64,000 nucleotides of DNA, from positions 10,974,001 to 11,038,000 of the forward strand of contig NC_088316.1 in assembly GCF_910592395.1 (NCBI RefSeq). The letters run 5' to 3'. Both the position numbers and the translations under genes were made by a program. The stretch is from Lineus longissimus. Taxonomy: Eukaryota > Nemertea > Pilidiophora > Heteronemertea > Lineidae. The notes under the pieces are model-generated. The model ran no database searches. It worked only from the letters and a program-made list of their open reading frames with translations, and was not told the DNA's origin. Shown piece after piece: positions 18,476-48,439 of this stretch; the stretch's first letter is position 1; each line of letters begins with the position of its first letter.

Positions 18476-19082
18476 CTGGTAGAACCTATCCTGGTTGAGA
18501 GCGACCCGGGTCACTATTTAGGCCTATTTTACTGCTGGGGTAATTAGCGCTATCTATCAATGTGCACTGTTTCTGTTTTTGAGTGTTTCCCCTCATTGTT
18601 TGGGAACGCTCAAAAATAGATTGACAAGTTTTTCTGTGTATCCCCCCTATTGAAAAGTCGTGGTCTCTCTAGCTGCCTATTGTTTGGAAACACTGACACA
18701 TGGGAAACAACCACAGATGTTAAAGGCTTGTACCCACGGACGCGATTTTCCTTGCTTTTGCCGCCGCGGAAAGTCGCAGCGATAATCGCAAAGAATGGTT
18801 CCTAGTCAATTCAGTACATGTGTTCCCACTTGAGCGATGCTACAAAATCCAAGCGATTTCTCGTGCTTTCTCGTGCTTGGCCTTGCGCGCTACGTAATTG
18901 AGATTGCAAAAAGGGCAATCTATGCGACAAATCGCGGCGACCGGTTAGGTCATTTTGACTCAAGTAACTGCCTTTGGGTTATTGACAGACAGAATTACGT
19001 AATGATTTGCGGGCTTGTGTCCACAAATAGTCCTCAACTGTTCACTTGGTCATCATTTTGGGTCCGTCATCACCAACTCGAC

Positions 19083-21135
19083 ATGTCTGAACCCGATTTT
19101 TTGGAACGGTTGATCCTGGAGATTGAGAAGTTCCCTAGGATATATAACAAAGGATTGGAGGAATACAAGGATCCTGACAAAAAAGATGACGCATGGAAAA
19201 AGGTTGCTGATAAGTTGTCTATTGGAGGTAAATACATTTGATGTACATTTGGCTGATACAGTCTGTTATCATCAGCAATTTGAGAAGGACATATTATACA
19301 CTTTTGTTATGGATCTGCTGATACAGATGTTCCAAATGTCCTAGTCAGCAGGGCTTACTTCTATCTGAGATACTAGCCAGTTTTATTTAGTCTTCACCAA
19401 AGCAACTTTGGTGTTGCCATGAAACAGCACCGGCATCTGACATGAAATAGTCCTTGAATGTTTCTCTCACAACCAGGGCATCTTTCTTCTGCCTATGCCC
19501 GACTTGCTCTAGGTTCTGCAATATTCCATCATCAATACGATCTGTTTGGGCTTTTGGTTGTGGTGGTGGTGGAGGAACAGCTGTGCCCCTTTTCTGCAGC
19601 ATATTATGCAGAACGCACGTTGCCATCACCACCGCATCATCATTTTCTGGTTGAAGAGGAATTTTGCGGTGAAAGAGTCGCCATCGGTTTACAAGAATAC
19701 CAAATGCATTTTCTGAAATACGTCTGGCCCTAGATAACCTATAGTTGAATATGCGCTGATCAACGGGAAGATTTCTTCCCAGAAAAGGGCGCAGAAGGTT
19801 TTGTAGTGACGGGAAGGCCTCATCAGCTACAATGACACATGGAACCAAACCTCTGTGATCTGCATCTGGTAGATGCTTTTCTTCTGGAATATGGAGGGTG
19901 CCAGAGGCTACACCCTGGCCTAAGACGCTCCTACGGAAAATACCCCCGTCACTATTGGAACCGTATGATCCGACATCAATGACCGAGAAGGAGTAGTCAT
20001 GGTCTACCAGGGCAAGCAAGACAACGGAAAATGTCTTCTTGTAATTAAAATACATACTTCCAGATTTCTTTGGTGCAAAAATGAGGACATGCTTTCCATC
20101 CAATGCACCCAAACAATTTGGAAATTGCCATTTTGTATAGAAGCCTTCGATGCCTCTTTCCCAGTGGTTTCGGTCCGGTTTCGGCATGTACAACGGCTGT
20201 AGTTTCATCCAAATTGCTTCGCATGTTTCCTTCACGATTCTAGAGACCGTTGTCTTCCCAACACGAAAACTTGTCGATATTGTATTGTAGGAATCACCAG
20301 TTGCTAAGAACCTGAAATGAGAACATTTTTTTTTCAGTTCCTCTGGCAAAATCGAAGTGGACGCCATGAGAAGATACAAGAACGATATTCGTACAAAGAG
20401 TGGGCAAGGAAGAAAAAATGTAAAGGAATACAAGTACGCAAAAATGCTGGGATTTCTGGAACCGTTTTTGGAGGATCGAAGGTAAAGAATGATTTGATAT
20501 TTGCAAAATTTCGACTCTCGATAAATTGCCATATGAACAAGCATATTAAAATTGAATATGTTGTTCTTTCTAGGTCATCGGGTAATCTTCAGGCTACTCA
20601 AGAAGAGGGCCATGATGAAAAGCAGACGACCAAGGATGTATCTGACTTCCTTGCTGAGGATGACGATCAGACTGTGGATGAGGATCACGATGACACCATG
20701 GAGCCAAGCAGTTCGTCAAAGACAAGTGCCGTCACAGCGAAGAAAAGGAAGAAAACTGAGAGCACTGATGTCATTGCCACTACGGATGCAGTCTTTCTAA
20801 ATTACATAAAGAAAAAAAGCGAAAAAATGGACAGGAAACCTCCAATCGATACTGATGACGATGTAGCAGATTTCATGAAGTCTATGACAACTAAAGTAAG
20901 AAAGTTCCCCCCATATGTTAGGGTAGATCTAATGTTCAAAGTACATGGCCTTGTTCATCAAGCAGAAATGCAACAAATGTATAAAGCCAGTTCATCAGGC
21001 AATAGAGATGCATCTTCATGTAATGCACCAAACCAATCTTTGGTTGGGCAGCAACAGAGTGCAGCTGCAGTAGGTTCAGCTTGTCAACAAACCTTTGGCC
21101 AACAAATGATGAACAACTCGTGGTCATCCTTCTAA
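19083..21135 (+). pseudogene. MADF-BESS (Myb/SANT-like) protein of the Harbinger element, one frameshift
   Basis: Three exons fit GT/AG rules: 19083-19227, 20338-20481 and 20574-21135. Exon 1 starts MSEPDFLERLILEIEKFPRI and includes LEEYKDPDKKDDAWKKVAD, a classical MADF start (LI..V..yP.lY...dyKd..k...aW..ia). Exon 2 gives KSKWT, then in another frame RRYKNDIRTKSG. The exon is 144 nt, whereas phases at both ends demand 145 (mod 3), so one base seems lost near 20364. Exon 3 ends with a BESS-like helix (DDVADFMKSMTTKVRKF) and a Gln/Ser-rich tail. In PIF/Harbinger elements this partner binds the ends and brings the transposase to the nucleus. The frameshift could be an assembly error. Confidence 0.7.
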
Positions 21136-21501: not shown

Positions 21502-21787
21502 GTTTCAAAATGAACCCGGACGGCACGTGCAACGTGTCCAAAATGAACTCCGCAAGTCCTTGAAGTCGATTAGCAAGAGATTATGTCGTAACCTGACATG
21601 AGTACGCTCCATTATACGCTTCAGTCGGAACAGGTTACGAAATTCGGCGCGCAACGACTTGTCGCGGCGGAATATCGCAGCGACGTTTTGTAGGCGATAA
21701 ATCGCGCCCGTGGGTACAAGCCTTACACCGGGCCTAGAATTTTTTTGTGATTACGACCATTGACATGGAGTTTTATCTTATTTTGTA

Positions 21788-21952: not shown

Positions 21953-22701
21953 ACCGGGAGTCGACCTTATGGACTGTAAGAGCCGTGGTGATGGACTTTT
22001 GTTCCACTTTGATCGTGGGTCGCAGATCATTTGATAGGGGCAGTACCGGTATTGGTGTTGGTGGACATATGCCGAATCCCAGAAATAATAAATCCCAATC
22101 AATTTAATAGACTGTTCATGATAAACGACTGAATATGGTGTCATCTTTACACGTGATAACGTCACGCCAGGAGCTTGCATGAATTATGAAATATCCGATT
22201 TTCGCCGTGCCATTTTTATTGGTCACGCGCCTGTATTAAAAGATCCGGTTTAAGTTGAAGACAAACATAGTCCTTTGAAATATAGAATTGCCTTATGTGC
22301 ACACGATGTATGCGCGTGCGTGTGTGCGATTGTTCCTGCCAGTGGGTTTGAACCACTCACGCCAAAAAATATTGGTATGGTGAAAATCATTGAAAAAGGG
22401 TCACCTAGCGTTCAGACCCCCCCACACACACACTCAAAGTTATCATAAATAACACAAAACGATATGGTTTGACAGGGTTGGATGGATCTATTGATTTGTG
22501 AAAGTGTTCCTCGCTGTTTAAGTCTGAGAAACGTTATGAACATGAAGACGGTGCAAACTTTTAACTGAAAAATGACTTAGAATTTTAATACAGGTGCGTG
22601 ACCTATTGTATTTTTTGTTATGACATTAAATTTTGAAAACATTAGATGACCTTTATTTCTAACAGATTGATGTACTGGGAACGGTTTTAAAGCCAACAAA
22701 A
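21953..22701. promoter_or_regulatory. 5' leader region of the large composite element
   Basis: No ORF is recognised. A tract ending TTTATTTCTAACAG just before 22666 looks like a splice acceptor, so ORF 1 may be preceded by an intron. Terminal inverted repeats were looked for by eye against 33.6-35 kb and not found. Confidence 0.25.
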
Positions 22702-23778
22702 ATGGCTGGCGATGATAAAAAAAGAAGCAACGTCAACTCTGCGAGAAAGTTACTTAGGAGGAATCGACAAACTAGAAGTGGGGACCTTAGTAGGACAATA
22801 ACGAACGCATTTGTGAAAGTACTCTCTCCGAGACCTAGAACTATCAAATTAGATTCTTTAGTATGTCACGAAATTATGAGAGAATTAAAGTGGCCGAATA
22901 ACCGTATAAGGTACGTTCGTCTGATTTGGAGAGAAAATAGAGGTAATGTTAGAGAATACGTTGAGGATGCAAGGAGAGTTGACCACCTTAGTGTTCGTTG
23001 CCCTGATCAAGGCACTGAAAAGCCAGGTGAAGATATTCCAAGGACAGACGCAACCACAAGACGGATAGGGGTTGACCTTTTAGAACAGCCACTGAACGAG
23101 CCAAAGGAAGAATTATTTTCAGACAATCCGAGCGTTCTTTCAGTTGGAAGAAAGACCGAAGGTAATGATGCAAATGAGGGCGATAGCGACAGAGACTTTA
23201 AAAGTGTTGAGATAAGGAGTCCGGAATTAGCAGCAAAGGAGAAGGAAGACGAACGAAAGCGAATGGAAAGGTATGCCAAAATAATTAGGTATGACTTGGC
23301 GTTCTGGTTTAAGGGTTTAGATGACAAAGGAGCTTGGGCAGATGAAACAGTGCTACTGAACGTTAAATTCATTGACAGAGACTTTTCGTCAGATAGTAAA
23401 GAGGACACAGATGATACGGATACGACTGAAGGAGAAGGAGTCTCCAGTGGGCCATTGGTAGGGAGATTGTCAGGTAACATGACCGAACCTCCAGGTCTAA
23501 AAAGAGAATTAGGAACAAGGGGAAATGAAAAGAAGCAAAGAAAAGAGATCAGTATGTCAAAGGCTCAGGGCTCAACTGGCAAGCGACGGACAACACGCAC
23601 AATAACCAAAAAAAGGTATTCCAATAATTGGTTCGTCCCAGATTGGCGGAAAAAGAACATGGTAAAAAAAAGTAACAAAAGACAGAAAATGGTTTGCCTC
23701 ACAGGTCGCAGGCAAAAAGTGGCAGAGAGGATGGAACCAAAAGTCGAAAGCTGCATAAAGGCGATGACGATAAGATGA
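22702..23778 (+). CDS. Unknown basic protein, ORF 1 of the composite element
   Basis: It encodes 358 aa starting MAGDDKKRSNVNSARKLLRR. The N-terminal ~110 residues are strongly basic and helical (HEIMRELKWPNNRIRYVRLI); the middle is acidic (DSKEDTDDTDTTEGEG); the C-terminus is again basic (KRRTTRTITKKRY). No family is recognised; DNA binding is plausible from composition only. The ORF overlaps the next ORF by about 100 nt in another frame (-1), so it may be the N-terminal part of one longer protein joined by splicing or frameshift. The ATG at 22702 follows a possible splice acceptor at 22665. Confidence 0.5.
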   Translation: MAGDDKKRSNVNSARKLLRRNRQTRSGDLSRTITNAFVKVLSPRPRTIKLDSLVCHEIMRELKWPNNRIRYVRLIWRENRGNVREYVEDARRVDHLSVRCPDQGTEKPGEDIPRTDATTRRIGVDLLEQPLNEPKEELFSDNPSVLSVGRKTEGNDANEGDSDRDFKSVEIRSPELAAKEKEDERKRMERYAKIIRYDLAFWFKGLDDKGAWADETVLLNVKFIDRDFSSDSKEDTDDTDTTEGEGVSSGPLVGRLSGNMTEPPGLKRELGTRGNEKKQRKEISMSKAQGSTGKRRTTRTITKKRYSNNWFVPDWRKKNMVKKSNKRQKMVCLTGRRQKVAERMEPKVESCIKAMTIR

Positions 23779-24764
23779 GCCAGGGAGGGAATGAGCAAAG
23801 TGTTTTTGGCCTCACACGAGAATATAAGGACGATGATGATGATGAAGATTCCAAACGCCGAAAGCGCCATGATGGCAATGACTGCAGCGCGAGCCAGGGA
23901 GGGAATGAGAAAGGTGTTTCTGGCATCAGAGGAGAATTTAAGGACGATGATTATGATGATGATGATGATGGTGATGAAGATTCCAAACGCCGAAAGTGCC
24001 ATGATGGCGATGACTACAGCGCAGGCCAGGGAGGGAATGAGAAAGGTGTTTCTGGCATCAGAGGAGAATTTAAGGACGATGATTATGATGATGATGATGA
24101 TGATGATGAAGATTCCAAACGCCGAAAGTGCCATGATGGCGATGACTACAGCGCAGGCCAGGGAGGGAATGAGAACTTAGGTGTTTCTGGCATCAGTGGA
24201 GAATTTAAGGACGATGATTATGATGATGATGATGTAGATTCCAAACGCCGAAAGCGCCATGATGGCGATGACTGCAGCGCGAGCCAGGGAGGGAATGAGA
24301 AAGGTGTTTCTGGCATCAGAGGAGAATTTAAGGACGATGATTATGATGATGATGATGATGATGATGAAGATTCCAAACACCGAAAGCGCCATGATGGCGA
24401 TGACTGCAGCGCAGGCCAGGGAGGGAATGAGAAAGGTGTTTCTGGCATCAGAGGAGAATTTAAGGACGATGATTATGATGATGATGATGTAGATTCCAAA
24501 CGCCGAAAGCGCCATGATGGCGATGAATACAGCGCGAGCCAGGGTGGGAATGAGAAAAGTGTTTCTGGCATTAAACGAAAATATCAGGATGACGATGATT
24601 ATGATGATGAAGATGAAGGTAAAGATTCCAAACGCAGAAAACTGCATGTTGGGTACAATGAAGATGGTATTTGCGATGGCGACGGCGAAAACGACGGAGA
24701 TGCCGATAATAACGGTAGGGATGATGATGTGTTATTCAAAATCGAAAGATGCCCCTTGATTTAG
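23694..24764 (+). CDS. Coding minisatellite: alternating basic and acidic repeats
   Basis: Seven repeats of 41-44 aa each consist of a basic patch (SKRRKRHDGDD), a linker (SQGGNEKGVSGIRGEF) and an acidic run (KDDDYDDDDDDDED). Unit starts are spaced 132, 132, 126, 132, 123 and 132 bp, all multiples of three, so the frame has been kept while the array changed. The basic patches look like nuclear-localisation signals. No ATG lies near the start of the open frame (23676); the first is in DDKMSQGG at about 23773, consistent with translation as a continuation of ORF 1. The ORF ends 16 nt inside the transposase ORF. Function unknown. Confidence 0.55.
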   Translation: MPHRSQAKSGREDGTKSRKLHKGDDDKMSQGGNEQSVFGLTREYKDDDDDEDSKRRKRHDGNDCSASQGGNEKGVSGIRGEFKDDDYDDDDDGDEDSKRRKCHDGDDYSAGQGGNEKGVSGIRGEFKDDDYDDDDDDDEDSKRRKCHDGDDYSAGQGGNENLGVSGISGEFKDDDYDDDDVDSKRRKRHDGDDCSASQGGNEKGVSGIRGEFKDDDYDDDDDDDEDSKHRKRHDGDDCSAGQGGNEKGVSGIRGEFKDDDYDDDDVDSKRRKRHDGDEYSASQGGNEKSVSGIKRKYQDDDDYDDEDEGKDSKRRKLHVGYNEDGICDGDGENDGDADNNGRDDDVLFKIERCPLI

Positions 24765-26854
24765 AAACCATCGAAGGTTGCGTTGGGCAACCGATGACGG
24801 GAAAAGGATTTTATGAACGTCAATTACCTAGCTCGGCGAATTTTCAATTGGCATGCGAGGACTGGAAGGTAATTCTACAGCAAGCATCATCAAATACCTC
24901 ATACTTCAGGAAAGGAATGTGGCATGAAAAGTTCATTGAGGGAATTAAGCACAGTAATCCTTTCTGCAGCTTGATAATCAAAGACCACGTTAGAGGGAAA
25001 CGTAACTTGCTGAAGATGCGCCTGTATTGCAAATACACAGGCTGTCCCGTGTTAGCCACCCTGAAGATGGACAAAAATCTGCTGGCAACTGTACACTATA
25101 CGGGACACGTATGTCATAGAATACAGGAGGAAAACGCTCGTCCGATTCGTGGGACAGAGCGAAAAGCACTCCATGATATGTTTTCACATGGTGAGAAGCC
25201 GATGAATGAATACGTAAAGCGAGTCGGAAAAAAGGACCGGGAGGCTTTCATTATAAATGGCAATTGTGATGGAATTGGCAAATCAGGACAGGTTTTAAGA
25301 CAGATAGCACATGAGGCTAACTTAAATCTGACCTTTGATAAAAATGAAATGCTCAGTATCCTAAAAATGAAGACCTCCATGGAGAAGGCAAGTGGGCAAT
25401 CCAAAGTGCCAGGTTTTATTCAGGTTGTGGCTGTTGATCCACAGTACGTGTTTTATTGGACCGAAGACGGCGTCAGACTGTGGCACGATCTGTGTAGAAA
25501 GGATGCCTCCGTGATGGATGCAACGGGGAAGGTGATTCGAAAAACTTTAAAAGGGAAGAAATTTCTGTTTTACGAAGTAAGCATCAGAAATCCTATAAAG
25601 GGTGAACAAGCCATTCCCCTATTTGCTATGATCAGCACAGTGCATTCCCTGCCTTTGGTTCGTTACTGGATTTCTGAGTTCCGTAGAAATGAAAAAATCC
25701 TGTACGGACACGGCAGAGTTACCATACCTTGCCAAATAAATATGGACAGGGCAATGGTGTTTATCCTGGCCTTTCTTGGTGAAATAAACAACGAATCTTT
25801 GAAAAATTTCCTTGACCGATGCTGGAGGGTTGTGAATGGACAGGCTCAAGATGATGACATGACAAATAAAACCGTGCCCCATGCTTGCTCAAGTCAGGTC
25901 ATGAAGGATGTTTCAAAAATATGCAAGAAGCATTACAGCGGAAACACAGAATACGGCCTTTACTGCTTCAGTACCCTACTGAATGCCGGAGATATAAGGG
26001 AAGCTGAAGCAGCTTTATTTGATTTGGCTGTCATCGCACATGGTAGGCATGTAACAAATGCTGTAAAAATTGCGAGTGAAAGAATGGCTCGTCGGATAAA
26101 CAGTTTGCCGAAATGCAGCTTGACTGATCAGGACTTACCAACTTATAAAGTAACAGGTAACGATGAGGACGAGAACGAGGTCACTGAAAGCGCAGTTGAG
26201 CCAAACAAAAAACTCACTGAAGAAGATTACCTGACTGTGGCCGTCGGCACAAAATTTGCCAGATGGGCGAAAGAAACAATCCAAGAAGGGGAAAAGGTGG
26301 CCCAGAGAGACCCCGTAACAACTGAACCGACGAATTGTCGATATTCGCCCCAGTTCATAGCAGAACTGGAGAGGCTCCTTCTGCCAACGTTCCCACTGTG
26401 GTCTGTTGTAATGATTGAGGACCTCTCGAGGCATGGAGAAACCGCTCCGTACCGGAGACACATGTTTACTGGTAGGGGTCATCACAGTATCATGGCTGCA
26501 AGCAAGACCACCAGTTTGCAGGGAGGCCGATTCAGCACATTGAAGAACATCCTCCTGCAGGGTACTCATAACAATAGGCTAGATGTTTTCTCTAGCAAAC
26601 TAGAGGAAAGCACAAAGGCCCTGCAGATGCTTGCGGTAAAAACCTGCATTAAAGGGAAAATAAAGAAAACAAAAGGGAAAGAAAGTACCGATGTGCAGGA
26701 GCAGTGGAGTAAAAGAGATAAAGAACCCGAACAGGTCCGGGACAAGAAAGTCGGAAAGTATCAGCAGGCACCTTTCAAGGAAATTCCTATAACCAAAACG
26801 CCCAAGGTATCCAAAAAAAACAGCAAAGAACAAGGGGATACCGGTATCTCTTGA
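24749..26854 (+). CDS. DDE transposase, MULE (NOF/Foldback)-like
   Basis: A 701-aa protein. A zinc-knuckle-like region (C94, C99, H120, C122, H123: YCKYTGC ... HYTGHVCH) is followed by the candidate catalytic core: VMDATGK (D257), CQINMDRAMVFILAF (D333) and VPHACSSQVMK (H378, C380), the usual order D ... D ... HxCxxHxxK of NOF/IS3EU-type transposases. The C-terminal part has LPTFPLWSVVM and KTTSLQGGRFSTLK. In relatives I recall, the latter is SNAxVExxFxxLK with the catalytic Glu; here that place is G592 (codon GGA at 26522). If the alignment is right, the enzyme is dead. The tail is basic. The frame runs out at 26854 next to an A8 run (26813-26820). Family placement is from motif memory only. 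Confidence 0.65.
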   Translation: MPLDLETIEGCVGQPMTGKGFYERQLPSSANFQLACEDWKVILQQASSNTSYFRKGMWHEKFIEGIKHSNPFCSLIIKDHVRGKRNLLKMRLYCKYTGCPVLATLKMDKNLLATVHYTGHVCHRIQEENARPIRGTERKALHDMFSHGEKPMNEYVKRVGKKDREAFIINGNCDGIGKSGQVLRQIAHEANLNLTFDKNEMLSILKMKTSMEKASGQSKVPGFIQVVAVDPQYVFYWTEDGVRLWHDLCRKDASVMDATGKVIRKTLKGKKFLFYEVSIRNPIKGEQAIPLFAMISTVHSLPLVRYWISEFRRNEKILYGHGRVTIPCQINMDRAMVFILAFLGEINNESLKNFLDRCWRVVNGQAQDDDMTNKTVPHACSSQVMKDVSKICKKHYSGNTEYGLYCFSTLLNAGDIREAEAALFDLAVIAHGRHVTNAVKIASERMARRINSLPKCSLTDQDLPTYKVTGNDEDENEVTESAVEPNKKLTEEDYLTVAVGTKFARWAKETIQEGEKVAQRDPVTTEPTNCRYSPQFIAELERLLLPTFPLWSVVMIEDLSRHGETAPYRRHMFTGRGHHSIMAASKTTSLQGGRFSTLKNILLQGTHNNRLDVFSSKLEESTKALQMLAVKTCIKGKIKKTKGKESTDVQEQWSKRDKEPEQVRDKKVGKYQQAPFKEIPITKTPKVSKKNSKEQGDTGIS

Positions 26855-28577
26855 GAATGTATCTCTTGAGAAAGAAAGAAAATCAAGCATTACCCGCCCG
26901 AAAGTAGACAATGCTCGCTTGCCTAAGTCTATCGTATTTGACCACGGAAATTACGCTCTATCCAGTACAGGAAGACGAGGAACTGGCACTGATGGCAAAG
27001 AAATACATACGAAAGGAGCAGTTAGTGATAGAACACCGTCAATCCCAGGTGGTGATATCGGTTTGAAGAAAATGTACAATACTAAAAACAACTGCTGGTT
27101 CATCGCTTCCATTCAAGCCATTATTCCAACAAGTGCTGTTGATGACATTCTTTCCAGGCCAACGGAGAGTGTTGAACCCAAGACGAGGATTATCCAGTCG
27201 TTCCTGAGAAAATACAGGGAGGGCAAGAGCGTACCCAGGCAACTGATCGAAAAAACCATACAAGAGGTGATCGCAGCCGCAAAAAATAAAGACATGGAAT
27301 TGGGACGCTAGAACGATGCCCATGAATTCTTCACAACGTTTATAGCTGAAATGATGGTGGAATTGGGTATCAACACCGGTGCAGTTAGAATGACAACGAT
27401 GTGCACAGAATGTGGAAAGACAGGAAACCCAAAAGTGGAATCAGTTACACAAATTCCAGTCCCTGTGACAGACCAGGGCACTGTAAGTCTCCAGAATATT
27501 TTCGACAATCATGCTATGGGCGTAGAATGCTTAACTGACACCGGATGCGAATGCAAGGCTGAACAATCCCTAGTCAGGGCGGCTGAAGTTCTTCGTCTCC
27601 CGACCATTCTTGTCTTTTTCGTGAACAGGAATCTTGGTGGTGCTAGTGACAAAGTATTTGGCGATGTCGATTTACCGGATGAACTCCAAATGAGGCAACG
27701 AAATAGAGATGGTAGTGAGTATGAATTGCAGAGTTATGAACTGAAATCTGCCATTGTTCATCAAGGTAAACACTGTACTGTTGGGCATTACAAAACTTTG
27801 CTCAAAGGCGAACATGGCGGCTGGATAACATGTGATGACAATGATCTCTACAAGAGCACGGAGGCAGATGTACAAGCTGCACATGCCGAATGCTATCTGA
27901 TTATTTATGAAACGTCCAAACCAGAAAAGCCCCCACTAAGCCGGTCTACCGATTTTGAAATCAGTACAGCTGAAATACAAAAGAAGCAGGCATTGGTGTC
28001 AATTCTGCAAGGCATCGAAAAAAAAGGGAAAAAGTCGATGGCAACAATTGATGGCGTAAATATAAGGTACATCGATGTTAAAGCCTTGCTGGGAACAAAC
28101 TGGGTGAATGACGCTGTCATAAATGCGTACATTAAACTTGTGTGCCGACGGGCAAAATACAACAGAGATATGCCCAAGGTGTATTCATATCAAACTCAGT
28201 GGTACGAGAGCATAACAGGACAGATAAAAAAAATATTCATGTGGACCAGATATGTAAATCTCAGCGATTACGACTTGATATTCTTCCCAACAAACACCTC
28301 TTGCCATTGGGTTCTGATTGTGATCGATTTGAAAAAGAAAACGGCCACAACATATGATTCTTTAGGGGAGTCTGATGGCAAACAAGACAAAAGGAGGAAA
28401 TTAGAGGATCAACAACTGGCAATAAAAGTGGTCAATGACGCAATGAAGAAAGAAATTGGGGTGGAGTACGATTTTAAACATACGTCACAAACGGCGGTAC
28501 AACAACAGAGGAACTTCAACGACTGTGGTGTGTTTCTCTGCCACTTCGCAAAATGCATAAGTGCAGCTAACCCGTAA
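26793..28577 (+). pseudogene. USP-type deubiquitinase fused to ULP1/SENP-type SUMO protease
   Basis: The frame is open from 26793 with no ATG until just before the USP Cys box (NTKNNCWFIASIQAI), implying translation as an extension of the transposase. USP features: Cys box, DAHEFF (family QxxDAHEF), zinc-ribbon CxxC pairs (MCTECG; GCECK) and the His box HCTVGHYKTLL ... WITCDDNDL ... CYLIIYE. A TAG at 27309-27311 sits just before NDAHEFF where the family has Gln, so it is probably a CAG-to-TAG nonsense change. ULP1 features (about 28040-28560): WVNDAVINAYIKLV, SCHWVLIVID (His), ATTYDSLG (Asp), NFNDCGVFLC (Cys). The C-terminal ~25 residues normal for ULP1 are missing because the minisatellite begins at AANP*. 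Presumed substrates: ubiquitin and SUMO conjugates in the nucleus. Confidence 0.75.
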
Positions 28578-29705
28578 ATCGTCATGTTTGCCAGCCTCAA
28601 ATCGTCATGTTTGCCAGCCTCAAAGTGAGATTGGGTGGGTGATAATTCCATCGCTAACCTGTAAATCGTCATGTTTGCCAGCCTCAAATCATCATGTTTG
28701 CCAACCTCAAAGTGAGATTGGGTGGGTGATAATTCCATCGCTAACCTGTAAATCGTCATGTTTGCCAGCCTCAAATCGTCATGTTTGCCAGCCTCGAAGT
28801 GAGATTGGGTGGGTGATAATTCCATCGCTAACCTGTAAATCGTCATGTTTGCCAGCCTCAAATCGTCATGTTTGCCAGCCTCAAAGTGAGATTGGGTGGG
28901 TGATAATGCCATCGCTAACCTGTAAATCGTCATGTTTGCCAGCCTCAAATCTTCATGTTTGCCAGCCTCGAAGTGAGATTGGGTGGGTGATAATTCCATC
29001 GCTAACCTGTAAATCGTCATGTTTGCCAGCCTCAAATCGTCATGTTTGCCAGCCTCAAAGTGAGATTGGGTGGGTGATAATGCCATCGCTAACCCGTAAA
29101 TCGTCATGTTTGCCAGCCTCAAATCGTCATGTTTGCCAGCCTCAAAGTGAGATTGGGTGGGTGATAATACCATCGCTAACCTGTAAATCGTCATGTTTGC
29201 CAGCCTCAAATCGTCATGTTTGCCAGCCTCAAAGTGAGATTGGGTGGATGATAATGCCATCGCTAACCTGTAAATCGTCATGTTTGCCAGCCTCAAATCG
29301 TCATGTTTGCCAGCCTCAAAGTGAGATTGGGTGGGTGATAATGCCATCGCTAACCTGTAAATCGTCATGTTTGCCAGCCTCAAATCGTCATGTTTGCCAG
29401 CCTCAAAGTGAGATTGGGTGGGTGATAATACCATCGCTAACCTGTAAATCGTCATCTTTACTAGCCTCAAATCGTCATGTTTGCCAGCCTCGAAGTGAGA
29501 TTGGGTGGGTGATAATACCATCGCTAACCTGTAAATCGTCATGTTTGCCAGCCTCAAAACGTCATGTTTGCCAGCCTCAAAGTGAGATTGGGTGGGTGAT
29601 AATTCCATCGCTAACCTGAAAATCGTAATGTTTGCCAGCCTCAAATCGTCATGTTTGCCAGCCTCGAAGTGAGATTGGGTGGGTGATAATACCATCGCTA
29701 ACCTG
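28562..29705 (+). repeat. 87-bp minisatellite, about 13 copies
   Basis: The unit contains CTAACCTGTAAATCGTCATG, TTTGCCAGCCTCAAA (twice, an internal ~30-bp duplication), GTGAGATTGGGTGGGTGATA and ATNCCATCG. Spacing is exactly 87 bp (28625, 28712 ...). Because 87 is a multiple of three and the unit lacks stops, long ORFs occur on both strands here; they are artefacts. The array starts at the last codons of the ULP1 ORF. Confidence 0.95.
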
Positions 29706-32700
29706 TAACCTCGCCATTCCTCAACGGGTGGGTGATAATACCATCGCTAACCCACAACCTCGCCATGCTTCAACGGGTGGGTGATAATACCATCGCTAAC
29801 CTGTAACCTCGTCATTCCTCAACGGGTGGGTGATAATACCATGGCTAACCCACAACCTCGCCATGCTTCAACGGGTGGGTGATAATACCATCGCTAACCT
29901 GTAACCTCGCCATTCCTCAACGGGTGGGTGATAATACCATCGCTAACCCACAACCTCGCCATGCTTCAACGGGTGGGTGATAATACCATCGCTAACCCGT
30001 AACCTCGTCATTCCTCAACGGGTGGGTGATAATACCATCGCTAACCCACAACCTCGCCATTCCTCAACGGGTGGGTGATAATACCATCGCTAACCTGTCA
30101 CCTCGCCATTCCTCAACGGGTGGGTGATAATACCATCGCTAACCCACAACCTCGCCATGCTTCAACGGGTGGGTGATAATACCATCGCTAACCTGTAACC
30201 TCGCCATTCCTCAACGGGTGGGTGATAATACCATCGCTAACCCACAACCTCGCCATGCTTCAACGGGTGGGTGATAATACCATCGCTAACCTGTAACCTC
30301 GTCATTCCTCAACGGGTGGGTGATAATACCATCGCTAACCCACAACCTCGCCATGCTTCAACGGGTGGGTGATAATACCATCGCTAACCCACAACCTCGC
30401 CATGCTTCAACAGGTGGGTGACAATACCATCGCTAACCCACAACCTCGCCATGCTTCAACGGATGGGTGATAATACCATCGCTAACCTGTTACCTCGCCA
30501 TTCCTCAACGGGTGGGTGATAATACCATCGCTAACCCACAACCTCGCCATGCTTCAACGGGTGGGTGATAATACCATCGCTAACCTGTAACCTCGCCATT
30601 CCTCAACGGGTGGGTGATAATACCATCGCTAACCTGTAACCTCGCCATTCCTCAACGGGTGGGTGATAATACCATCGCTAACCTGTAACCTCGCCATTCC
30701 TCAACGGGTGGGTGATAATACCATCGCTAACCCACAACCTCGCCATGCTTCAACGGGTGGGTGATAATACCATCGCTAACCTGTAACCTCGTCATTCCTC
30801 AACGGGTGGGTGATAATACCATCGCTAACCCACAACCTCGCCATTCCTCAACGGGTGGGTGATAATACCATCGCTAACCTGTCACCTCGCCATTCCTCAA
30901 CGGGTGGGTGATAATACCATCGCTAACCCACAACCTCGCCATGCTTCAACGGGTGGGTGATAATACCATCGCTAACCTGTAACCTCGCCATTCCTCAACG
31001 GGTGGGTGATAATACCATCGCTAACCCACAACCTCGCCATGCTTCAACGGGTGGGTGATAATACCATCGCTAACCTGTAACCTCGTCATTCCTCAACGGG
31101 TGGGTGATAATACCATCGCTAACCCACAACCTCGCCATGCTTCAACGGGTGGGTGATAATACCATCGCTAACCCACAACCTCGCCATGCTTCAACAGGTG
31201 GGTGACAATACCATCGCTAACCCACAACCTCGCCATGCTTCAACGGATGGGTGATAATACCATCGCTAACCTGTTACCTCGCCATTCCTCAACGGGTGGG
31301 TGATAATACCATCGCTAACCCACAACCTCGCCATGCTTCAACGGGTGGGTGATAATACCATCGCTAACCTGTAACCTCGCCATTCCTCAACGGGTGGGTG
31401 ATAATACCATCGCTAACCTGTAACCTCGCCATTCCTCAACGGGTGGGTGATAATACCATCGCTAACCTGTAACCTCGCCATTCCTTAACAGGTGGGTGAT
31501 AATACCATCGCTAACCCACAACCTCGCCATGCTTCAACGCGTGGGTGATAATACCATCGCTAACCCACAACCTCGCCATGCTTCAACGAGTGGGTGATAA
31601 TACCATCGCTAACCTGCAACCTCGTCATTCCTCAACGGGTGGGTGATAATACCATCGCTAACCCACAACCTCGCCATGCTTCAACGGGTGGGTGATAATA
31701 CCATTGCTAACCCACAACCTCGCCATGCTTCAACGGGTGGGTGATAATACCATCGCTAACCCACAACCTCGCCATGCTTCAACGGGTGGGTGATAATACC
31801 ATCGCTAACCCGCAACCTCGCCATGTTTCAACGGGTGGGTGATGATACCATCGCTAACCCACAACCTCGCCATGCTTCAACGGGTGGGTGATAATACCAT
31901 CGCTAACCCACAACCTCGCCATACTTCAACGGGTGGGTGATAATACCATCGCTAACCTGTCACCTCGCCATTCCTCAACGGGTGGGTGATAATACCATCG
32001 CTAACCCACAACCTCGCCATGCTTCAACGGGTAGGTGATAATACCATCGCTAACCTGTAACCTCACCATTCCTCAACGGGTGGGTGATAATACCATCGCT
32101 AACCCACAACCTCGCCATGCTTCAACGGGTGGGTGATAATACCATCGCTAACCAACAACCTCGCCATTCCTCAACGGGTGGGTGATAATACCATCGCTAA
32201 CCTGTAACCTCGCCATTCCTCAACGGCTGGGTGATAATACCATCGCTAACCCACAACCTCGCCATGCTTCAACGGTTGGGTGATAATACCATCGCTTATC
32301 TGTAACCTCGCCATGCTTCAACGGGTGGGTGATAATACCATCGCTAACCTGTAACCTCGCCATTTCTCAACGGGTGGGTGATAATACCATCGCTAACCTG
32401 TAACCTCGCCATTCCTCAACGGGTGGGTGATAATACCATCGCTAACCTGTAACCTCGTCATTCCTCAACGGGTGGGTGATAATACCATCGCTCACCCGCA
32501 ACCTCGCCATGTTTCAACGGGTGGGTGATAATGCCATCGCTTACCCGCAACCTCGCCATGCTTCAACGAGTGGGTGATAATGCCATCGCTTACCTGTAAC
32601 CTCGCCATTCCTCAACGGGTGGGTGATAATACCATCGCTAACCTGTAACCTCACCATGCTTCAATGGGTGGGTGATAATACCATCGCCAACCTGCAACCT

Positions 32701-32815
32701 CACCATGCTTCAATGAGTGGGTGATAATACCATCGCTAACCCACAACCTCGCCATGCTTCAACGGGTGGGTGATAATACCATCGCTAACCCGCAACCTCG
32801 CCATGTTTCAACGGC
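29706..32815 (+). repeat. 49-bp minisatellite, about 63 copies
   Basis: Unit: CTCAACGGGTGGGTGATAAT, ACCATCGCTAAC, then CTGTAACCTCGCCATTC (type A) or CCACAACCTCGCCATGCTT (type B). A and B often alternate, giving a 98-bp dimer. It shares GGGTGGGTGATAATNCCATC with the 87-bp unit, so one array was derived from the other. A block of 16 units (784 bp) from about 30.0 kb is duplicated in tandem: rare variants such as CAACAGGTGGGTGACAATAC (30408, 31192) and CCTGTCACC (30094, 30878) recur exactly 784 bp apart. Confidence 0.95.
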
Positions 32816-32821
32816 CTAAAA

Positions 32822-33588
32822 GTGAGTTGGGATGTATCAGTATACTTGGCCAAGTTGTCTTTTCAGAAAATGAAACAAGTGATTTTTTTGATGGACTCGC
32901 GAGGCTATCAGGTCCGGGACTTGCTACGATCAAAAGAAAACCTGAACTATCAGACGCACTGTGTTGTCATGCCCGGTGCAACGATTGATCGTCTGCAGTT
33001 TGAGGGAGACTACCAAGTTGACACTCTGACGCGAAGGAAAGTTCGGCCGGAGGATATCAAAATAGTTCTAATCGCAGGTATATGCAACCTTACTGAGAAG
33101 CGACAGCATCGTGGAGGTGAAGAGCTGGTTTTCCTCAACCAAGCAAACTGTTTTACGCTGATCAACCAGATAAAGGATTTTTTAATCATTTTGAAACTAA
33201 AAACATCAGAGTCAAAATATCGACTCTAGTACCAGCTTTCCTTAACAAATACAATATTAAAAACGCTCAAAAGAGGAAGTTGTGGCCCTGTCGTTACCTA
33301 GATGAGGAAACAGAGGATCAGCAGCGAAAGCTAGAGCGGTCTGTTGCTCGTGTAAATAGGGAGATCATCCAACTTCAGCACGCAACAAATGCCATTCGCC
33401 TTGACAGAACGGCAATAAAAACTTCAAAGAAGCAACGTGGACGCAAGATCGTAAAGTTCACAGCACGCGGTCTAACGGATGGAGTCCACCCCAATGAACA
33501 AATGGTCCACCAATGGATGAGACACATCGAGCGGTGTATCAAAGAATTCATAGACGTGGCGTCAAAAGGTATGCAAAAAATGTTTTGA
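32822..33588 (+). pseudogene. SGNH/GDSL-hydrolase-like ORF, one frameshift
   Basis: The first ATG is at about 32870 (MKQVIFLMDSRGYQVRDLL). SGNH blocks: I, FLMDSRG (nucleophile Ser); II, VMPGATIDRL (Gly); III, LIAGICNLT (GxN); V, LTDGVHPNEQ (Asp-x-x-His). The frame changes near the T6 run at 33178-33183: frame 2 up to INQIKD, frame 1 thereafter (ISTLVPAFLNKY ... RYLDEETEDQQ). Residue order and spacing then fit one protein of about 235 aa, so a one-base loss is likely. SGNH esterase-like domains occur in several invertebrate retroelement ORFs and in cellular proteins; substrate unknown. It may be cargo of the composite element or its own unit. A possible polyadenylation signal AATAAA lies near 33699. 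Confidence 0.6.
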
Positions 33589-34983
33589 AATTCATGTAGA
33601 ATCTTATTACCAGTTAACACTCCGATCACATCAAACCTCATTAAGAGTAAAAAGCAGTGTTCCGACCAATTTGAATGTTAAAATTATATTTATTTTACAA
33701 TAAAAATGTATCATTGTCCGAAGTAAAAAAAACCCAACCAACTAATTAGATATGTGCCCAACTTATTTCAATTCAAAAAAATCGTCAATGGTAACCTCTG
33801 TTAACAAGGAAATCTTACTATACGTTGGTAAATATCAGCGGGTGTACATGTGTACGAAATGCGACCAGAGGACAGACGGCCGCGAAATTGGTATAACCAG
33901 AGTCTTTGTATAGAAAGACTCTGGTATAATTATCCGAGCTATTAAATGTGACTTAATTACCATTTCTCTACTTAAAACTTTCAGAAGCTGGCCCTCCGCC
34001 AATGGCAGCGTACCACTAGACAGCAAACATCGCCAAGATTTGTATATAAAGGCAAGTACAAAGAAATATAAGTGTAAAATCAAACTTATTTTTGTACCCC
34101 ATCGACTTATAAATTCACTACTAAGACGCGAGCATAATTTTGTCTATGGTGTTGGAGTATGTAGAGTCAGAAAGAGTCTGCATACGATGCGCGCAAAAAG
34201 AACGTGTTTCTGCCACCCAACTATATAGCATATAATTCAGTAATACAATGGATTCGCTTTTTTTTCAACATAATTGGTTCTCTGAGTTGGAATGTCCTTA
34301 TCAGAAACATCCGGAACCTCATGGCCTATACTCCTTTAAACATAGCCGGGGTGTAATAAATCATTATAAAGATGCAATAAACATTGATGGTCAAGATGTA
34401 TCAGAAATGGCCAAGTCCCGTAGACGTAGAATTAGTACGCACAAAGTGCAAAGGCCTGAACTCACTGTCGCGTTTTAAAGTTTTTTAAGAAGTTAAATCA
34501 TGCTTTTGGTCGCATACCTATTCAGGAACTTCCGAAATTTGATACGGCCAGTTGACCGATATGAAAAAGTTCCTTATGAGAGAACCGCAGTGGTTGGTGA
34601 CATGTTACCCAGATGGTACACGTAATCGGTCTATAACACGGTGGACAAGTTTGAAGTGATTGAATTTGGCCCGGGGATAATATTTGGACGCGTCGAATAG
34701 CGAAAGGCCCTACAAAACATGCTTTTCTTCTTGATTTGTGCTTTATCCTCACGGATTCTGACAAAACCAGGCCTTTGTATCTTCGTTGCAGATTCCATTC
34801 ACAATATTTCAATACTAAATCATTAGCCGTTGAAGCATTAGGCGGGTATTCATTGGAGGGTATATTCGGTTTATCCCATAAAGTAACTGGTGGGAAATGT
34901 AGCCCCATAGTTGATGACGTATTCCGGAAATTCTATAAGTTATAAGTATAAGTTTAGGGATAAGTTGTGGATTTCAACCTCAC
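33589..34983. other. Unassigned region right of the composite element
   Basis: A small hairpin at 33896-33932 (CCAGAGTCTTTG / AAAGACTCTGG) and two unassigned plus-strand ORFs (34248-34478 and 34736-34945) are present. The minus-strand ORF 34522-34908 carries RRKACFVGPFAIRR, faintly like a retroelement integrase tail, too weak to call. The right end of the composite element may be here. Confidence 0.4.
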
Positions 34984-34985
34984 TA

Positions 34986-37271
34986 CAGGGTGTATCAGAA
35001 AAAATTAGACTGTCGAAAAAATCATCATAAAATTAACATAGGGAGGAGTTTCGAAAAACTGGCTACACCCCTTTGTAGAGGGTGTGATTCTGCATTGTAT
35101 TATACCAGTGTCATCGTTAACACTTTACGTTACAATGTGCATGGACAGTTTGAATTTTGAAAAATTAAAGTCCTTTGCGCACGGGAATGTGAGGGTTAAA
35201 ATTGGATGTGTCAAAGTGAATGAAAAGTTTAGATGGAGTTTTACTCGCGTGCCAAAGCGTTTTTGAAATAATTAACCCTTTCACCCCCTAATCCTGAAAC
35301 AAAACTATCTCATTTCTGAGTGTAGATCTTCATCAAGGGGTCAAGAAACTTAAACTGTTTTACATGTACTGACTGTTAGGTTTACATGAATGTAAGCGTA
35401 CACCGTCATTGTTCGGCTGAGGAAGATCACTTAAAAGAAAAAAATAACCTAATTGTACAGTAGCCCATTGCCATTTTTAACAAAGCATTCACAATGTACA
35501 TGAACATGTAAATGTACAATGAATTAAACTGTCAAATCACATAATTCTTCTTACAAAATTCTCGTACTTTCTGGAATTTCCTGTCATGGTGCAATGGGAC
35601 AATCAAAAGTTCCTTAGTCCTCCACGTGGGCACCGTTTCTTTGAACGCAGATTTGTGCCCTTCGCAACATGTGCCCAACAGCACGCCTTATCACCGCTCC
35701 GTCTTCCCTTAAGATCTCAACTTCGGCTGTGATCCTTCTCTCAAGATCATCCAGGTTGGCAGGGGGTGTGACATAAACCTTTGATTTAAGGTGGCCCCAC
35801 AGGAAGTAGTCGAGTGGTGTAAGGTCGGGAGACCGCGGAGGCCATTCCACTGGTCTGTTCAACGTAACAACTCTGTCTCCGAACAGTTCTGTCAGCCGCT
35901 CGGTAACAACCCTCCGTCTGTGGGGTGGCGCGCCATCCTGCGCCCACCAAGCGCGCCGGAATTCGATGGCATCCCTTCCTTGTGGCCTAAACCTGCGCAT
36001 TCTGTTGATAGCGGGAACCACACGTTCATTGATCATTTGGAGGTAGTCCTGGCCATTCAGGTTTTGGCGAAAGAAGAAAGGTCCGACGATGGCTCCGTTG
36101 CCGACTAAGCCAATCCAGACCGTCATCTTGTGCCGGGCGTCATTGCGCTCGTATGCAAAATCAAGTGGCTGCTCTCCCCTCGGGCGATATTCCCTTACGT
36201 TATGGCTGTTCACAAAAGCATTCATGGCGAAGCCAGACTCATGATAAAGTCATCGAGGAAACGTTGCCGCTGTCCAAGCAACCACTGGCAGAATCGTAGG
36301 CGACGTGCCAAATCGCCGGGAAGAAGTTGATGCCTCTTAATCATTTGGTACGGGTGGAATCGCAGGTCAAGGCGCGTGCTACGATTGAATGTGGTTGACG
36401 ACATGCCAAGACCGTTCTTTCTGCAGCTGATAGTCTCCTCTCTCTCTTGTCCGACATGGTGTTCGTCGAGGAGGGTCCTCACTGCTTCAATGTTGGCTGG
36501 AGTACGTTCCGTCCTTCGTCGGCCCGACCTCCCTTTGTTGAGATTGTGGCTGGTTCCAGAAGTACGGTACTTATTGACGTTGTTGAAGACAGTGGCACGA
36601 CTTGGAACTCTCAGATTTGGAAATTGACGTTGGAACCGCTCAAGAACAGCAGGGACACTTTTGGTTTGGAGATATTCAGTAACCAGAAAAGACCTCTGAT
36701 GAGGGGTGTACTGTGGCCTGACCATTTTGCATCCATACCACAGGACACAAGCCAAACAGTGAGGACAAAATGCACAGATGCTCACAGATTTATGGCCAGG
36801 AATTACGTTAGGCCTATTATCTAACCAACATAAGGTAGCTATTTGAAGAAAATATGAAATTGACAAGATAGGACTTATGGTTATTATGGTCACGACCACT
36901 TCATGCCATTGCGTTAACCCCTTGATGAAGATCTACACTCAGAAATGAGATAGTTTTGTTTCAGGATCAGAGGGTGAAAGGGTAATTATTTCAAAAACGC
37001 TTTGGCATGCGAGTAAAACTCCATCAACATTTTTCATTCACTTTGACACATCCAATTTTAACCCTCATATTCCCGTGCGCAAAGGACTTTAATTTTTCAA
37101 AATTCAAATTGTCCATGCTCATTGGAACGTAAAGTGTTAACGATGACACTGGTATAATACAATGCAGAATCACACCCTCTACAAAGGGGTGTAGCCAGTT
37201 TTTCAAAACTCCTCCCTATGTTAATTTTATGATGATTTTTTCGACAGTCTAATTTTTTCTGATACACCCTG
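34986..37271 (-). mobile_element. mariner-superfamily transposon (DD41D) with ~350-bp terminal repeats
   Basis: TA precedes (34984-34985) and follows (37272-37273) the element. The ends are CAGGGTGTATCAGAAAAAAT and its complement. The inverted repeats run to about 35340 and back to about 36918 with few differences (for example AGTTTCGAAAAAC against AGTTTTGAAAAAC). The 2.3-kb element carries a single transposase gene on the minus strand. Such long repeats are uncommon for mariner-type elements. Confidence 0.85.
35614..36725 (-). pseudogene. mariner-type DD41D transposase, frameshifted
   Basis: The ATG at 36725 opens MVRPQYTPHQRSFLVTEYLQ, a helix-turn-helix start; a second HTH region with SGRRRTERTPANIEAVRTLL follows. 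The first part ends at 36222 after FLDDFIM. The second part, in another frame, resumes as ESGFAMNAFVNSHNVREY and includes GPFFFRQNLNG, WWAQDGAPPH (second Asp), WPPRSPDLTPLDYFLWG (third Asp). Exactly 41 residues separate the two Asp, the DD41D signature reported for the rosa/VISITOR-type group. At the join (about 36243) the bases around the first catalytic position read CATGAGTCT, so one base is missing and the expected GAT (Asp) codon is not present. The copy is inactive unless this is a sequence error. Confidence 0.8.
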
Positions 37272-37273
37272 TA

Positions 37274-38339
37274 TAGTGGCTGTTGTTGTACGACCGCATT
37301 AGATCGATTATGTCACATCCAAGCGGCCGATTCGTCCATCACACTGTTTTAACTATAAAATTCAAAATTATTGACAAGCTCTTCGTCACATGCGGGAGTG
37401 TCACTAAATGGCGGGAATGATAAATCGAGTGCGATCTCGGAAGACTTTTGCTATCCAAATCACATGAAAGTCACAAAAGATCGGGGTTCTTTTATTTCCC
37501 TGAACGCTTTGAGTGGCTGAAAAAGCTGGCTGAGGCCTGAAACTAGGTTATAAAAGCTCAATTATCTCTTCATCATTGAATGAAAATTGCCATGAAGTTA
37601 TTGCTTTTACTCATTTCAGTATTCACCGGTTGCCGTCCACCCCTGTGCATTCACGTACTGATAGAACCCAACTATTGGTGATTGACTGATCGTCAGAAAC
37701 CTATGCAATGCCTTGGAGAAGCGCTCCTGAGGTGGGACCAAATATCACAATGGTGTTAAGTTCCGAGAACTATCTGTAGGACGTCATTTGGGCATGTAGC
37801 CTAATAGCAATCATCAATCAACGAACTGGTTTCGTGAATCTGCATGGCATTAATAAGCAATTGCGCAAAAAGCACAATTTTACATAGTGAACTAGGCAAA
37901 AACTGCTAAAGGTATTGAAAGACATGTTGTAGGATCAGAAATATGCCAAAATAAAAATGGTGAAAGTTCAATTTTTCACTTTTTGTGATTCTACAATGAA
38001 GCCACCCGAAGATTTTAGCCGCTTTGTACATTCGTTTCATTGTAAAGGCGTTTATTCATGCATTTTGTTAGCAGCACTGTAAATCAAAGTTGAACCTTCA
38101 CATGTTTTAGAGCATTGATGGACTTGTGAACTAAGATTGTATATACTTTAAGGGTTATTATAAATTGTGAATATCAGCATTCAATTGATATCTTGACTTT
38201 TTCATTTTTGTGAACGGCCACACGTCGGTAACATATGGAATACTATCTTCTTGTCAAGCATTGGCACTCAACACAACTAACCTGGTTGTGAAGGAGACCT
38301 GGTGAGGGATCTGGAACCACTTGTCCCATCTTGCTTAAA
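37274..38339. other. Gene-free stretch
   Basis: No ORF above 60 codons and no repeat boundaries are seen. Confidence 0.4.
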
Positions 38340-39450
38340 CAGGACTGCTAACATAGGGGACACCAAGCCGGGTAAGACAGTCACATCCCTTGCCCATGAT
38401 CATTGATGATGCTACATGTATGAAATGTCCTATACTAGTCCCATCTTGGTTCAGGCACACTATAACCAAGCTGGATGAGACAATCACATCCCTTGCCCAT
38501 GATATTGGTTATGAGGTGTCCTATAGTCCCATCGTGGTTCAGGGACACCAAGCCGGGTAAGACAGTCACATCCCTTGCCCATGATCATTGATGATGTTAC
38601 ATGTATGAAATGTCCTATACTAGTCCCATCTTGGTTCAGGCACACTATAACCAAGCTGGATGAGACAATCACATCCCTTGCCCATGATATTGGTTATGAG
38701 GTGTCCTATAGTCCCATCGTGGTTCAGGGACACCAAGCCGGGTAAGACAGTCACATCCCTTGCACATGATCATTGATGATGTTACATGTATGAAATGTCC
38801 TATACTAGTCCCATCTTGGTTCAGGCACACTATAACCAAGCTGGATGAGACAATCACATCCCTTGCCCATGATATTGGTTATGAGGTGTCCTATAGTCCC
38901 ATCGTGGTTCAGGGACACCAAGCCGGGTAAGACAGTCACATCCCTTGCACATGATCATTGATGATGTTACATGTATGAAATGTCCTATACTAGTCCCATC
39001 TTGGTTCAGGCACACTATAACCAAGCTGGATGAGAGGTTCAGGGACACCAAGCCAGGTAAGACAGTCACATCTCTTGCCCATGATATTGTTTATGAGGTG
39101 TCCTACAGTCCCATCATGGTTCAGGGACACCAAGCCAGGTGAGACAGTCACATCTCTTGCCCATGATATTGGTTATGAGGTGTCCTTTAGTCCCATCGTG
39201 GTTCAGGGACACCAAGCCGGGAGGACAGTTATATCCCTTCCCATGATATTGGTTATTGGGTGTCCTATACTTGTCCCATCGAGGTTCAGGACACCAAGAC
39301 GAGCGAGATGGTCACATCCCTTGCCCATGATATAGGTTATGACATATCCTATACAGAGTCCTATACTGCTTGTCTCATCTTGGTTCAAGGACACTAAGCT
39401 GGATGTGTGACGGTCACATCCCTCGCCTATATGTTGGTTATGACATGTCC
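38340..39450. repeat. 185-bp tandem repeat, degrading to ~90-bp units
   Basis: GGACACCAAGCCGGGTAAGA, CAGTCACATCCCTTGCCCAT, GATCATTGATGATGTTACAT and CACACTATAACCAAGCTGGA recur every 185 bp from 38358 to 39040 (nearly identical copies). From 39040 shorter, more variable half-units follow. Each 185-bp unit is two related halves of about 95 and 90 bp. Confidence 0.9.
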
Positions 39451-40157
39451 TATACCAGTGTAGTATAAAGAAGGCAGGTTTAGTTGTGATTTTGAACTCA
39501 AGGTACAGCCAATCATCATTTTAACCCCCACACATATATCACTATCAGGTTAAACCTTTTTTCGCTAAAGAATTGCATCAGATTTATAACACTTTATAGG
39601 TACCATCTCTTATGAGGGAATAATGTATCTTTCAAAACCTTATGAAAAAAGTGTCATGAGGAATCAGTAAAAAAAGGACCAGTGAATTTACTTTTTTTCA
39701 AGGAAAACCCCATTTTATTATAAAAATACACAGCTAAGTCAGAAGTCATGGATATAATTGTCATTTTCTGAAGATTTAGTGCATCTGCTGAAACTTAAAG
39801 GGAGTGTAAACAATCATCAACTTTTGCACAGAAAAATGCCATCAAAGTCATCCTTTAGCTAACTTTGCAATGCTGGCCCAGGCCTACTATTCAAGATGAC
39901 AGCCGAAATATAATACAAAAAACTTGGTTCACGCCAAGTTGATTCTAATCAATACATATAATCCTAATTACTACAGCAAAACTGAGGGTATACATGGGTG
40001 AATTCAGGCCTATTATGTAATCTTCGCACGTTCCGAAAGCTGTCTGGGGTGAGGAACTGGGCTATTTATTGAGATAGCAATTAATACTTTGGTGTCGCAC
40101 CTCCCTGCAGAGCGTAATCTGGTAAAACTTGAACTTCAATTCTAGCTGAAACGGCTG
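39451..40157. other. Gene-free AT-rich stretch
   Basis: Nothing recognised. Confidence 0.35.
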
Positions 40158-40211
40158 TGGTGATAATACCATCGCTAACCTGTAGCCTCACCATGCTTCA
40201 ATGGGTGGGCG
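40158..40211 (+). repeat. Orphan copy of the 49-bp minisatellite unit
   Basis: GGTGATAATACCATCGCTAA, CCTGTAGCCTCACCATGCTT and CAATGGGTGGGCGATT equal one full unit plus part of the next, 7.3 kb from the array at 29.7-32.8 kb. Confidence 0.85.
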
Positions 40212-43721: not shown

Positions 43722-43865
43722 TAATTGTATTACCAGGAGCAAGATTGTTTGAGTGAATCTGGAGAGATCGTATATTATTCTTCACCGTCGTATTTTAGAA
43801 TTCGTTTGTCATACTGTAAATATTTGTTTGTTCGTCGTAAATCGTTTAGAGAGTCCTAGGTTGTA

Positions 43866-48437: not shown

Positions 48438-48439
48438 CT

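Follow-up and report, generated by a model that had tools for sequence, protein, structure and literature searches.

A probable decayed transposon copy in Lineus longissimus with a predicted deubiquitinase and a predicted deSUMOylase behind its transposase-like protein

The window analysed here is a stretch of 64,000 nucleotides from the nemertean Lineus longissimus (C9:10974001-11038000), and the subject of this report is a putative mobile element on its forward strand. A transposase-like open reading frame (ORF; 24728-26851) is followed on that strand by a ubiquitin-specific protease (USP) and a ULP1-type protease (26793-28574), a succession that was proposed in an initial annotation and is upheld here. 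We think it probable, with some reservation, that the locus holds the decayed remains of one copy of a DNA transposon encoding a single polyprotein, which ran from an acidic N-terminus through a finger-like segment, a DDE transposase with a CxxH motif and a linker to the USP and the ULP1, and whose proteases acted in cis. The order is shared by two families of copies in this genome, other copies have the parts in single frames, the catalytic residues are conserved, and the protein has been under selection. Genome searches covered 391 Mb in 30 contigs, and the features of the window between 22663 and 33585 lie on its forward strand.

The USP and the ULP1 share one frame, as the initial annotation had stated. 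In the ORF at 27312-28574, Pfam UCH (52.2 bits, E 8e-14, residues 22-196) and Peptidase_C48 (86.1 bits, E 4e-24, residues 263-420) are matched in succession, and the USP Cys-box continues in the same frame beyond a single TAG (27309-27311) that splits the USP domain of this copy. Upstream of the TAG, the ORF at 26793-27311 contains the linker and the N-x4-C Cys-box (26793-27308; sequence YNTKNNCWFIASIQA, Cys codon 27093-27095). Downstream, the C-terminal part of the USP (27312-27926) has NDAHEFF, CxxC and CxC, the His of GHY (27786) and DD, recognised through Pfam UCH, sequence matches to PDB chains and alignment; its nearest solved chains by sequence are USP36, USP46, USP2 and others. The ULP1 (28098-28574), recognised through Pfam C48 and alignment to a copy on C3, has His 28305, the Asp of YDS and QQ...NDCG with Cys 28524, and is without the C-terminal 25-30 residues present in the C3 copy. 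Its nearest solved chains are SENP1 (E 9e-23) and SENP2, which suggests cleavage of SUMO rather than of ubiquitin or NEDD8. The tail is thus predicted to consist of a USP deubiquitinase and a ULP1/SENP-type deSUMOylase.

The window copy is broken, both by frame changes, including an offset between the transposase frame and the USP-ULP1 frame, and by the stop inside the USP. Two ways of reading through these interruptions were rejected. A programmed -1 frameshift at an A-run before the linker does not fit, as the USP is not read in the -1 frame and a close copy has one frame there; recoding of the TAG is unneeded, because a copy on C3 (L002) has no stop at that site.

Intact segments are found in other copies. 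A C48 profile search of the genome gave 31 matches, the five best of which lie in the window, on C3 (three places) and on C2. Each of the three C3 places has an uninterrupted USP-ULP1 ORF of 616 residues, and in that of L002 the UCH profile is matched over positions 4-254 of 254 with 89.8 bits, above the Pfam curated cut-off of 23.9 bits, together with C48 (68 bits). The C2 copy has an ORF of 1216 residues that comprises an N-terminus with acidic repeats, the transposase and the USP Cys-box; after one frame break there follows an ORF of 466 residues with UCH (76.8 bits) and C48 (64.8 bits). Since the last 151 residues of the 1216-residue ORF are the start of the 616-residue ORF (98% identity), the domain order can be read across two copies without mending. 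The earlier description of the proteases as lying next to a transposase therefore holds as to order, which recurs in two families, but understates the relationship, as the parts form one polypeptide. On C3 (11404001-11424000), two tandem transposase-USP-ULP1 copies (L011 and L012), each without the N-terminus, lie 5.3 kb apart with a minisatellite between them, and this tandem likely arose by unequal exchange in the minisatellite.

The window and the C2/C3-type copies are only distantly related, with 20-25% identity in the transposase (tblastn, E 2e-9 to 1e-14) and 36% over 418 residues of USP-ULP1 (E 5e-79 to 2e-81). By these comparisons the copies belong to two old families with one architecture, A (window type) and B (C2/C3/C20/C17b type). 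The closest copy to the window, C10a (C10:5634695), is 98% identical to 26598-26929 and has the transposase C-terminus and the USP linker in one frame. That the window copy is spread over several frames could indicate chance neighbours or an assembly artefact, and we regard this as extremely improbable: USP-ULP1 frames of 616 residues are uninterrupted at three C3 places and one of 466 residues stands at C2, fusions exist in other organisms, and chance adjacency is rejected because independent families and ORFs repeat the same order.

The linkage to the transposase, the lack of which would have told against the initial annotation, was examined from the transposase side and is upheld. Twenty-one genomic matches clustered into 12 places on C2, C3, C9, C10, C17 and C20. 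A USP follows at nine of these (the window, C2, the three on C3, C20a, C20b, C17a and C10b), and both USP and ULP1 follow at six (the window, C2, the three on C3 and, in part, C20b, where the ULP1 is truncated ahead of its catalytic residues). No USP follows at C10a, which retains the linker and has lost the USP (5.9 kb examined), at C17b, where the copy is cut off behind the transposase, or at C9b, which is fragmentary (3.7 kb examined). Several others are damaged in recognisable ways. C20a consists of tandem partial units, the last of which alone reaches a USP, itself interrupted by a reverse-transcriptase ORF; the transposase of C17a is interrupted by a piggyBac-like ORF (both interrupting ORFs named by eye); and C10b breaks right at the USP Cys-box. 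USP-ULP1 copies lacking a transposase were sought through the C48 family search only, and for three of its 26 weaker matches (L006, L007 and L008) tblastn gave no transposase or USP match within about 1.5 kb on each side. These three are separate ULP1-type ORFs of 179-221 residues elsewhere in the genome.

Comparison of the families also bears on whether the protein was maintained. Between the window and C3, the proportions of synonymous (pS) and nonsynonymous (pN) differences are 0.82 and 0.43 in the His part of the USP (195 codons), 0.70 and 0.42 in the Cys part (83 codons) and 0.78 and 0.37 in the ULP1 (188 codons); between the window and the transposases of C10b and C17a, they are 0.79-0.87 and 0.20-0.31. 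Synonymous sites are saturated, and the catalytic motifs are still present. In the alignment of the window with C3, the USP keeps N-x4-C-W, NDA[HQ]EFF, GHY and DD, and the ULP1 keeps CHW, YDS, QQ and NDCG, with His, Asp and Cys as well as the Gln in place; the Cys of the Cys-box, the oxyanion Asn, the GHY of the His-box and the Asp are what we take to be the catalytic residues of the USP. These patterns indicate long-term purifying selection on a transposase-USP-ULP1 protein. Against its closest copy, C10a, the window has dN/dS values of 1.08 and 0.87, and such values near 1 point to decay after insertion. Among themselves, family B copies differ by few changes, with ratios of 0.0-0.9. The intact and nearly identical state of some segments, such as the 616-residue ORF, might also be expected if the host had domesticated a transposon gene and the locus were not a mobile element. 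We consider this very unlikely, as the 12 places are spread over six contigs, are all broken or fragmentary and in two cases are interrupted by other elements, and the ratio between the window and C10a is 0.9-1.1.

The transposase itself is the least readily classified part. Its ORF has 708 residues with a C-x4-C finger-like N-terminal part, and is not a product of chance, since 300 random shufflings of the bases of 24728-28577 gave longest ORFs of 120 residues on average and never of more than 218. It is recognised through proteins of other organisms (P0003-P0008) and the 11 further genomic places. Neither Pfam nor PDB gives it a match, and its NCBIfam and PHROG matches are weak and meaningless; the "MULE-like" (Mutator-like element) label of the initial annotation is therefore unconfirmed. 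Neither MULE, PHD finger nor an integrase-type Pfam domain was matched in the window ORF, the 1216-residue C2 ORF or eight members of set A2. The relatives conserve a pattern of D264...D340...C387xx(H)...acid 599, for which the window has D264 (25517), D340 (25745), C387xxQ (25886), with Gln for the His of CxxH, and Gly at the third-acid position 599 (26522). In the C2 transposase the corresponding residues are D656, D729, HLCTAH and APVEAWF, and the third-acid motif is SVQEGRF in P0003 and STIENRF in P0006; at this last position P0004 has Asp and the window Gly. The first two acids are 73-76 residues apart, and the second and third 234-259. In MULEs the latter spacing is usually shorter; transposases of ULP1-bearing Mutator-like elements are, moreover, Pfam-recognisable MULEs, and the window transposase differs from them in having no Pfam MULE match. 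A DDE-type transposase with CxxH is the best reading, the whole case for it being the aligned residues and the dispersed, decayed copies.

Relatives in other organisms extend the association of transposase and USP. A protein search with the 708-residue ORF gave P0003, P0004 and P0005 (49-52% identical), and a profile search added P0006 (33% identical to P0004), P0007 and P0008. In P0004 (806 residues) and P0006 (925 residues), the start of a USP stands behind the transposase in one protein, with UCH scores of 23.9 and 41.4 bits, respectively. A protein from the thrips Megalurothrips usitatus (P0009) is a weak profile match (E 7.5e-6); its transposase core is a distant relative, its tail is USP/C98-like with a score under the Pfam cut-off, and it could represent a third lineage in which the two are fused. 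Among proteins up to 1.75 times the query length, the 421-residue USP-ULP1 ORF gave two fungal SUMO proteases only. Pattern matches in searches for relatives on viral contigs (81 and 45) and on prokaryote genome contigs (27) included none that was confirmed.

A number of observations weigh against a transposon-encoded polyprotein with a conserved protease tail. The transposase core matches nothing in Pfam or PDB, and its AlphaFold model is unusable (pLDDT 43). Searches for inverted repeats and for 5' and 3' edges gave no proven terminal inverted repeat (TIR) or target-site duplication, so that mobility rests on the dispersed and decayed copies. All 12 places are broken at least once or fragmentary; within families, dN/dS is uninformative or near 1; and in C17a the USP Cys has been lost, with Arg in its place. 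Outside this genome, the UCH score of P0004 exactly equals the cut-off, P0004 and P0006 both end inside the USP, and no relative reaches a ULP1, the linkage of which is seen in L. longissimus only. Furthermore, the 12 places are not independent, since in USP-ULP1 the C3 copies are 99-100% alike and C2 is 98% alike, and independent replication is thus that of family A versus family B. The standing of the favoured reading holds despite this non-independence, because the comparison of the two families carries the argument.

The unit is wider than the 24749-28577 of the initial annotation, with probable N-terminal ORFs (22663-24761) in front and minisatellites (28566-32814) behind. An ORF of 371 residues (22663-23775) without a Pfam match is probably the 5' part of the same gene, to which its location ties it, as does the comparably long N-terminus of the C2 copy; it meets the next ORF by overlap only, so that the two may be separated by an intron or a break. 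An acidic repeat region (23676-24761) with DDDDD and SKRRKRHD units contains a 132-bp tandem repeat (23832-24640). These N-terminal repeats are common to the window and C10a, and acidic repeated N-termini are also found in C2 and in P0007. Behind the gene, Tandem Repeats Finder identified an 87-bp minisatellite that starts where the ULP1 ORF ends (28566-29708; 13.1 copies, 96% matches), and a 49-bp minisatellite follows (29677-32814; 64 copies, also supported by core counts). The 49-bp family is also present 3' of the gene at C2 and C3, where the gene-proximal units are 66 bp rather than 87 bp; its core did not appear in the examined stretches of C10, C17, C20 and C9b. Long TIRs and target-site duplications of about 9 bp are typical of MULEs; the inverted-repeat search detected no TIR around the window gene. 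The C2 gene is flanked on both sides by inverted arrays of a 167-bp repeat, and the best candidate for a 5' edge, common to C2 and C17b, precedes the C2 ORF by about 960 bp.

A minisatellite right behind the C-terminus is also a feature of Rehavkus, a MULE-related DDE group (PMC6446971), and together with the DDE and CxxH pattern it raises the alternative of an already known superfamily, either Rehavkus or a different group related to MULEs, in which USP-ULP1 has gone unannotated; the novelty would then be one of annotation only. The Rehavkus trait is a minisatellite before the 3' TIR and the elements carry a PHD finger (PMC6446971); here the minisatellite lies 3' of the gene at C9, C2 and C3 with no 3' TIR found, Pfam PHD and MULE are unmatched, and the 234-259 residues before the third acid are long for a MULE. 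We regard membership of a known superfamily as somewhat unlikely.

Beyond the minisatellites, an ORF remnant at 32740-33585 (280 residues, 71% identical by tblastn to an ORF that is open in C2) is SGNH-hydrolase-like by eye only, with no Pfam match of weight. With the minisatellite it forms a 3' module (window 30607-40638), which in C2 also has 82-bp and 167-bp arrays. After scoring of 40 of 82 candidates, the module was found with 97-99% identity to the window at C2:11885324-11887471, C3:11322499, C3:11444432 and C11:8983155-8989327, and with 67% identity at two C5 places. The gene beside near-identical modules is of family A at C9 and of family B at C2; no gene was found near the C11 module, and the two C3 modules are 25-80 kb from the C3 genes. 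Such sharing may mean that modules were exchanged or that they belong to a larger composite element, and recombination inside the minisatellite would be our guess as to the cause of a swap.

Other elements surround or interrupt the locus, the assignments being made by eye. A Tc1/mariner-like element (34975-37282) with 306-nt inverted ends, 95% complementary, is inserted into the 3' module, which resumes at 37272 and lacks this insert in C2. A PIF/Harbinger-like transposase ORF (reverse strand) and a neighbouring forward-strand ORF occupy 19387-21135, within a 26-nt inverted repeat (18723-18748 and 21699-21724) that may mark the element's ends. A BEL/Pao-like retrotransposon with three long ORFs lies at 43860-49581. 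Tandem repeats of 302 bp occur near several copies, at 552-1377 and 10681-12092 in the window and in the flanks of C2 and C17b, with opposite orientation at C2.

Enzymes of the SENP type take SUMO off proteins and USPs take off ubiquitin, and a SUMO mark becomes a degradation signal through SUMO-targeted ubiquitin ligases. If the favoured polyprotein reading is correct, then the USP-ULP1 tail would work in cis: it would strip SUMO and ubiquitin from the transposase and from neighbouring proteins (those of repair and chromatin where the element is excised or inserted), and so keep the transposition complex from SUMO-targeted ubiquitylation and loss to the proteasome. Removal of both tags from the element's own transposase or from chromatin, as suggested in the initial annotation, is a reasonable possibility. 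If the proteases instead work in trans, they would strip ubiquitin or SUMO from host silencing or repair proteins. The same anatomy fits this alternative, and activation of repair factors was proposed for Ulp1/OTU transposases by Bao et al. (PMC2836005); fusion to the transposase favours local over diffuse action, and we find the trans alternative rather unlikely. More specifically, and at somewhat less than an even chance, the element may represent an unnamed DDE lineage that carries its own deubiquitinase and deSUMOylase on one chain against both steps of SUMO-targeted ubiquitylation, with two deeply diverged families and a USP part found across species.

Transposons have repeatedly gained domains that remove ubiquitin or SUMO. 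Ginger1 DNA transposons of Hydra and other animals have a C-terminal Ulp1 or OTU domain and resemble the present element in having a transposase with a C-terminal protease for ubiquitin or ubiquitin-like proteins (PMC2836005). They differ in a Gypsy-integrase-like core with an H2C2 finger and GPY/F, for which there is no such Pfam match here, and, in the available text, in having OTU or Ulp1 according to family (one with a PHD), with no USP and no protease pair (PMC2836005). In the same text, the Trichomonas vaginalis protein XP_001314237.1 joins transposase_11 to Peptidase C19, and is thus alike in its USP-type domain and unlike in its core, with no ULP1 mentioned; Mutator-like elements of plants, hydra and lancelet are alike in carrying Ulp1 within a DDE transposon, with no USP mentioned (PMC2836005). 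Two different deubiquitinase domains in one transposon are known from Helitrons, of which 121 elements have both VTD and OTU, and prevention of degradation was proposed for VTD (PMC9741609). Helitrons, however, have a rolling-circle Rep/helicase and no DDE core, and in the part of that paper available both domains are of deubiquitinase type, with no deSUMOylase named (PMC9741609). The main texts of two MULE surveys (PMC6446971 and PMC13359780) contain no words starting with ulp, peptidase, OTU or ubiquitin. The novelty suggested in the initial annotation has to be narrowed, as the fusion of C19 to a transposase was known from Trichomonas (PMC2836005), and stands for the pair: no USP-ULP1 pair on a transposase was found in the literature available, with Repbase and most subscription papers outside the search. 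Pairing may shield the transposase from protein-tagging defences of the host, and one enzyme per modifier on the transposase chain points to SUMO-then-ubiquitin degradation as the host pressure. In comparison to known systems, in which single proteases for ubiquitin or ubiquitin-like proteins accompany transposases, what is apparently new here is the pair of USP and ULP1 on one transposase.

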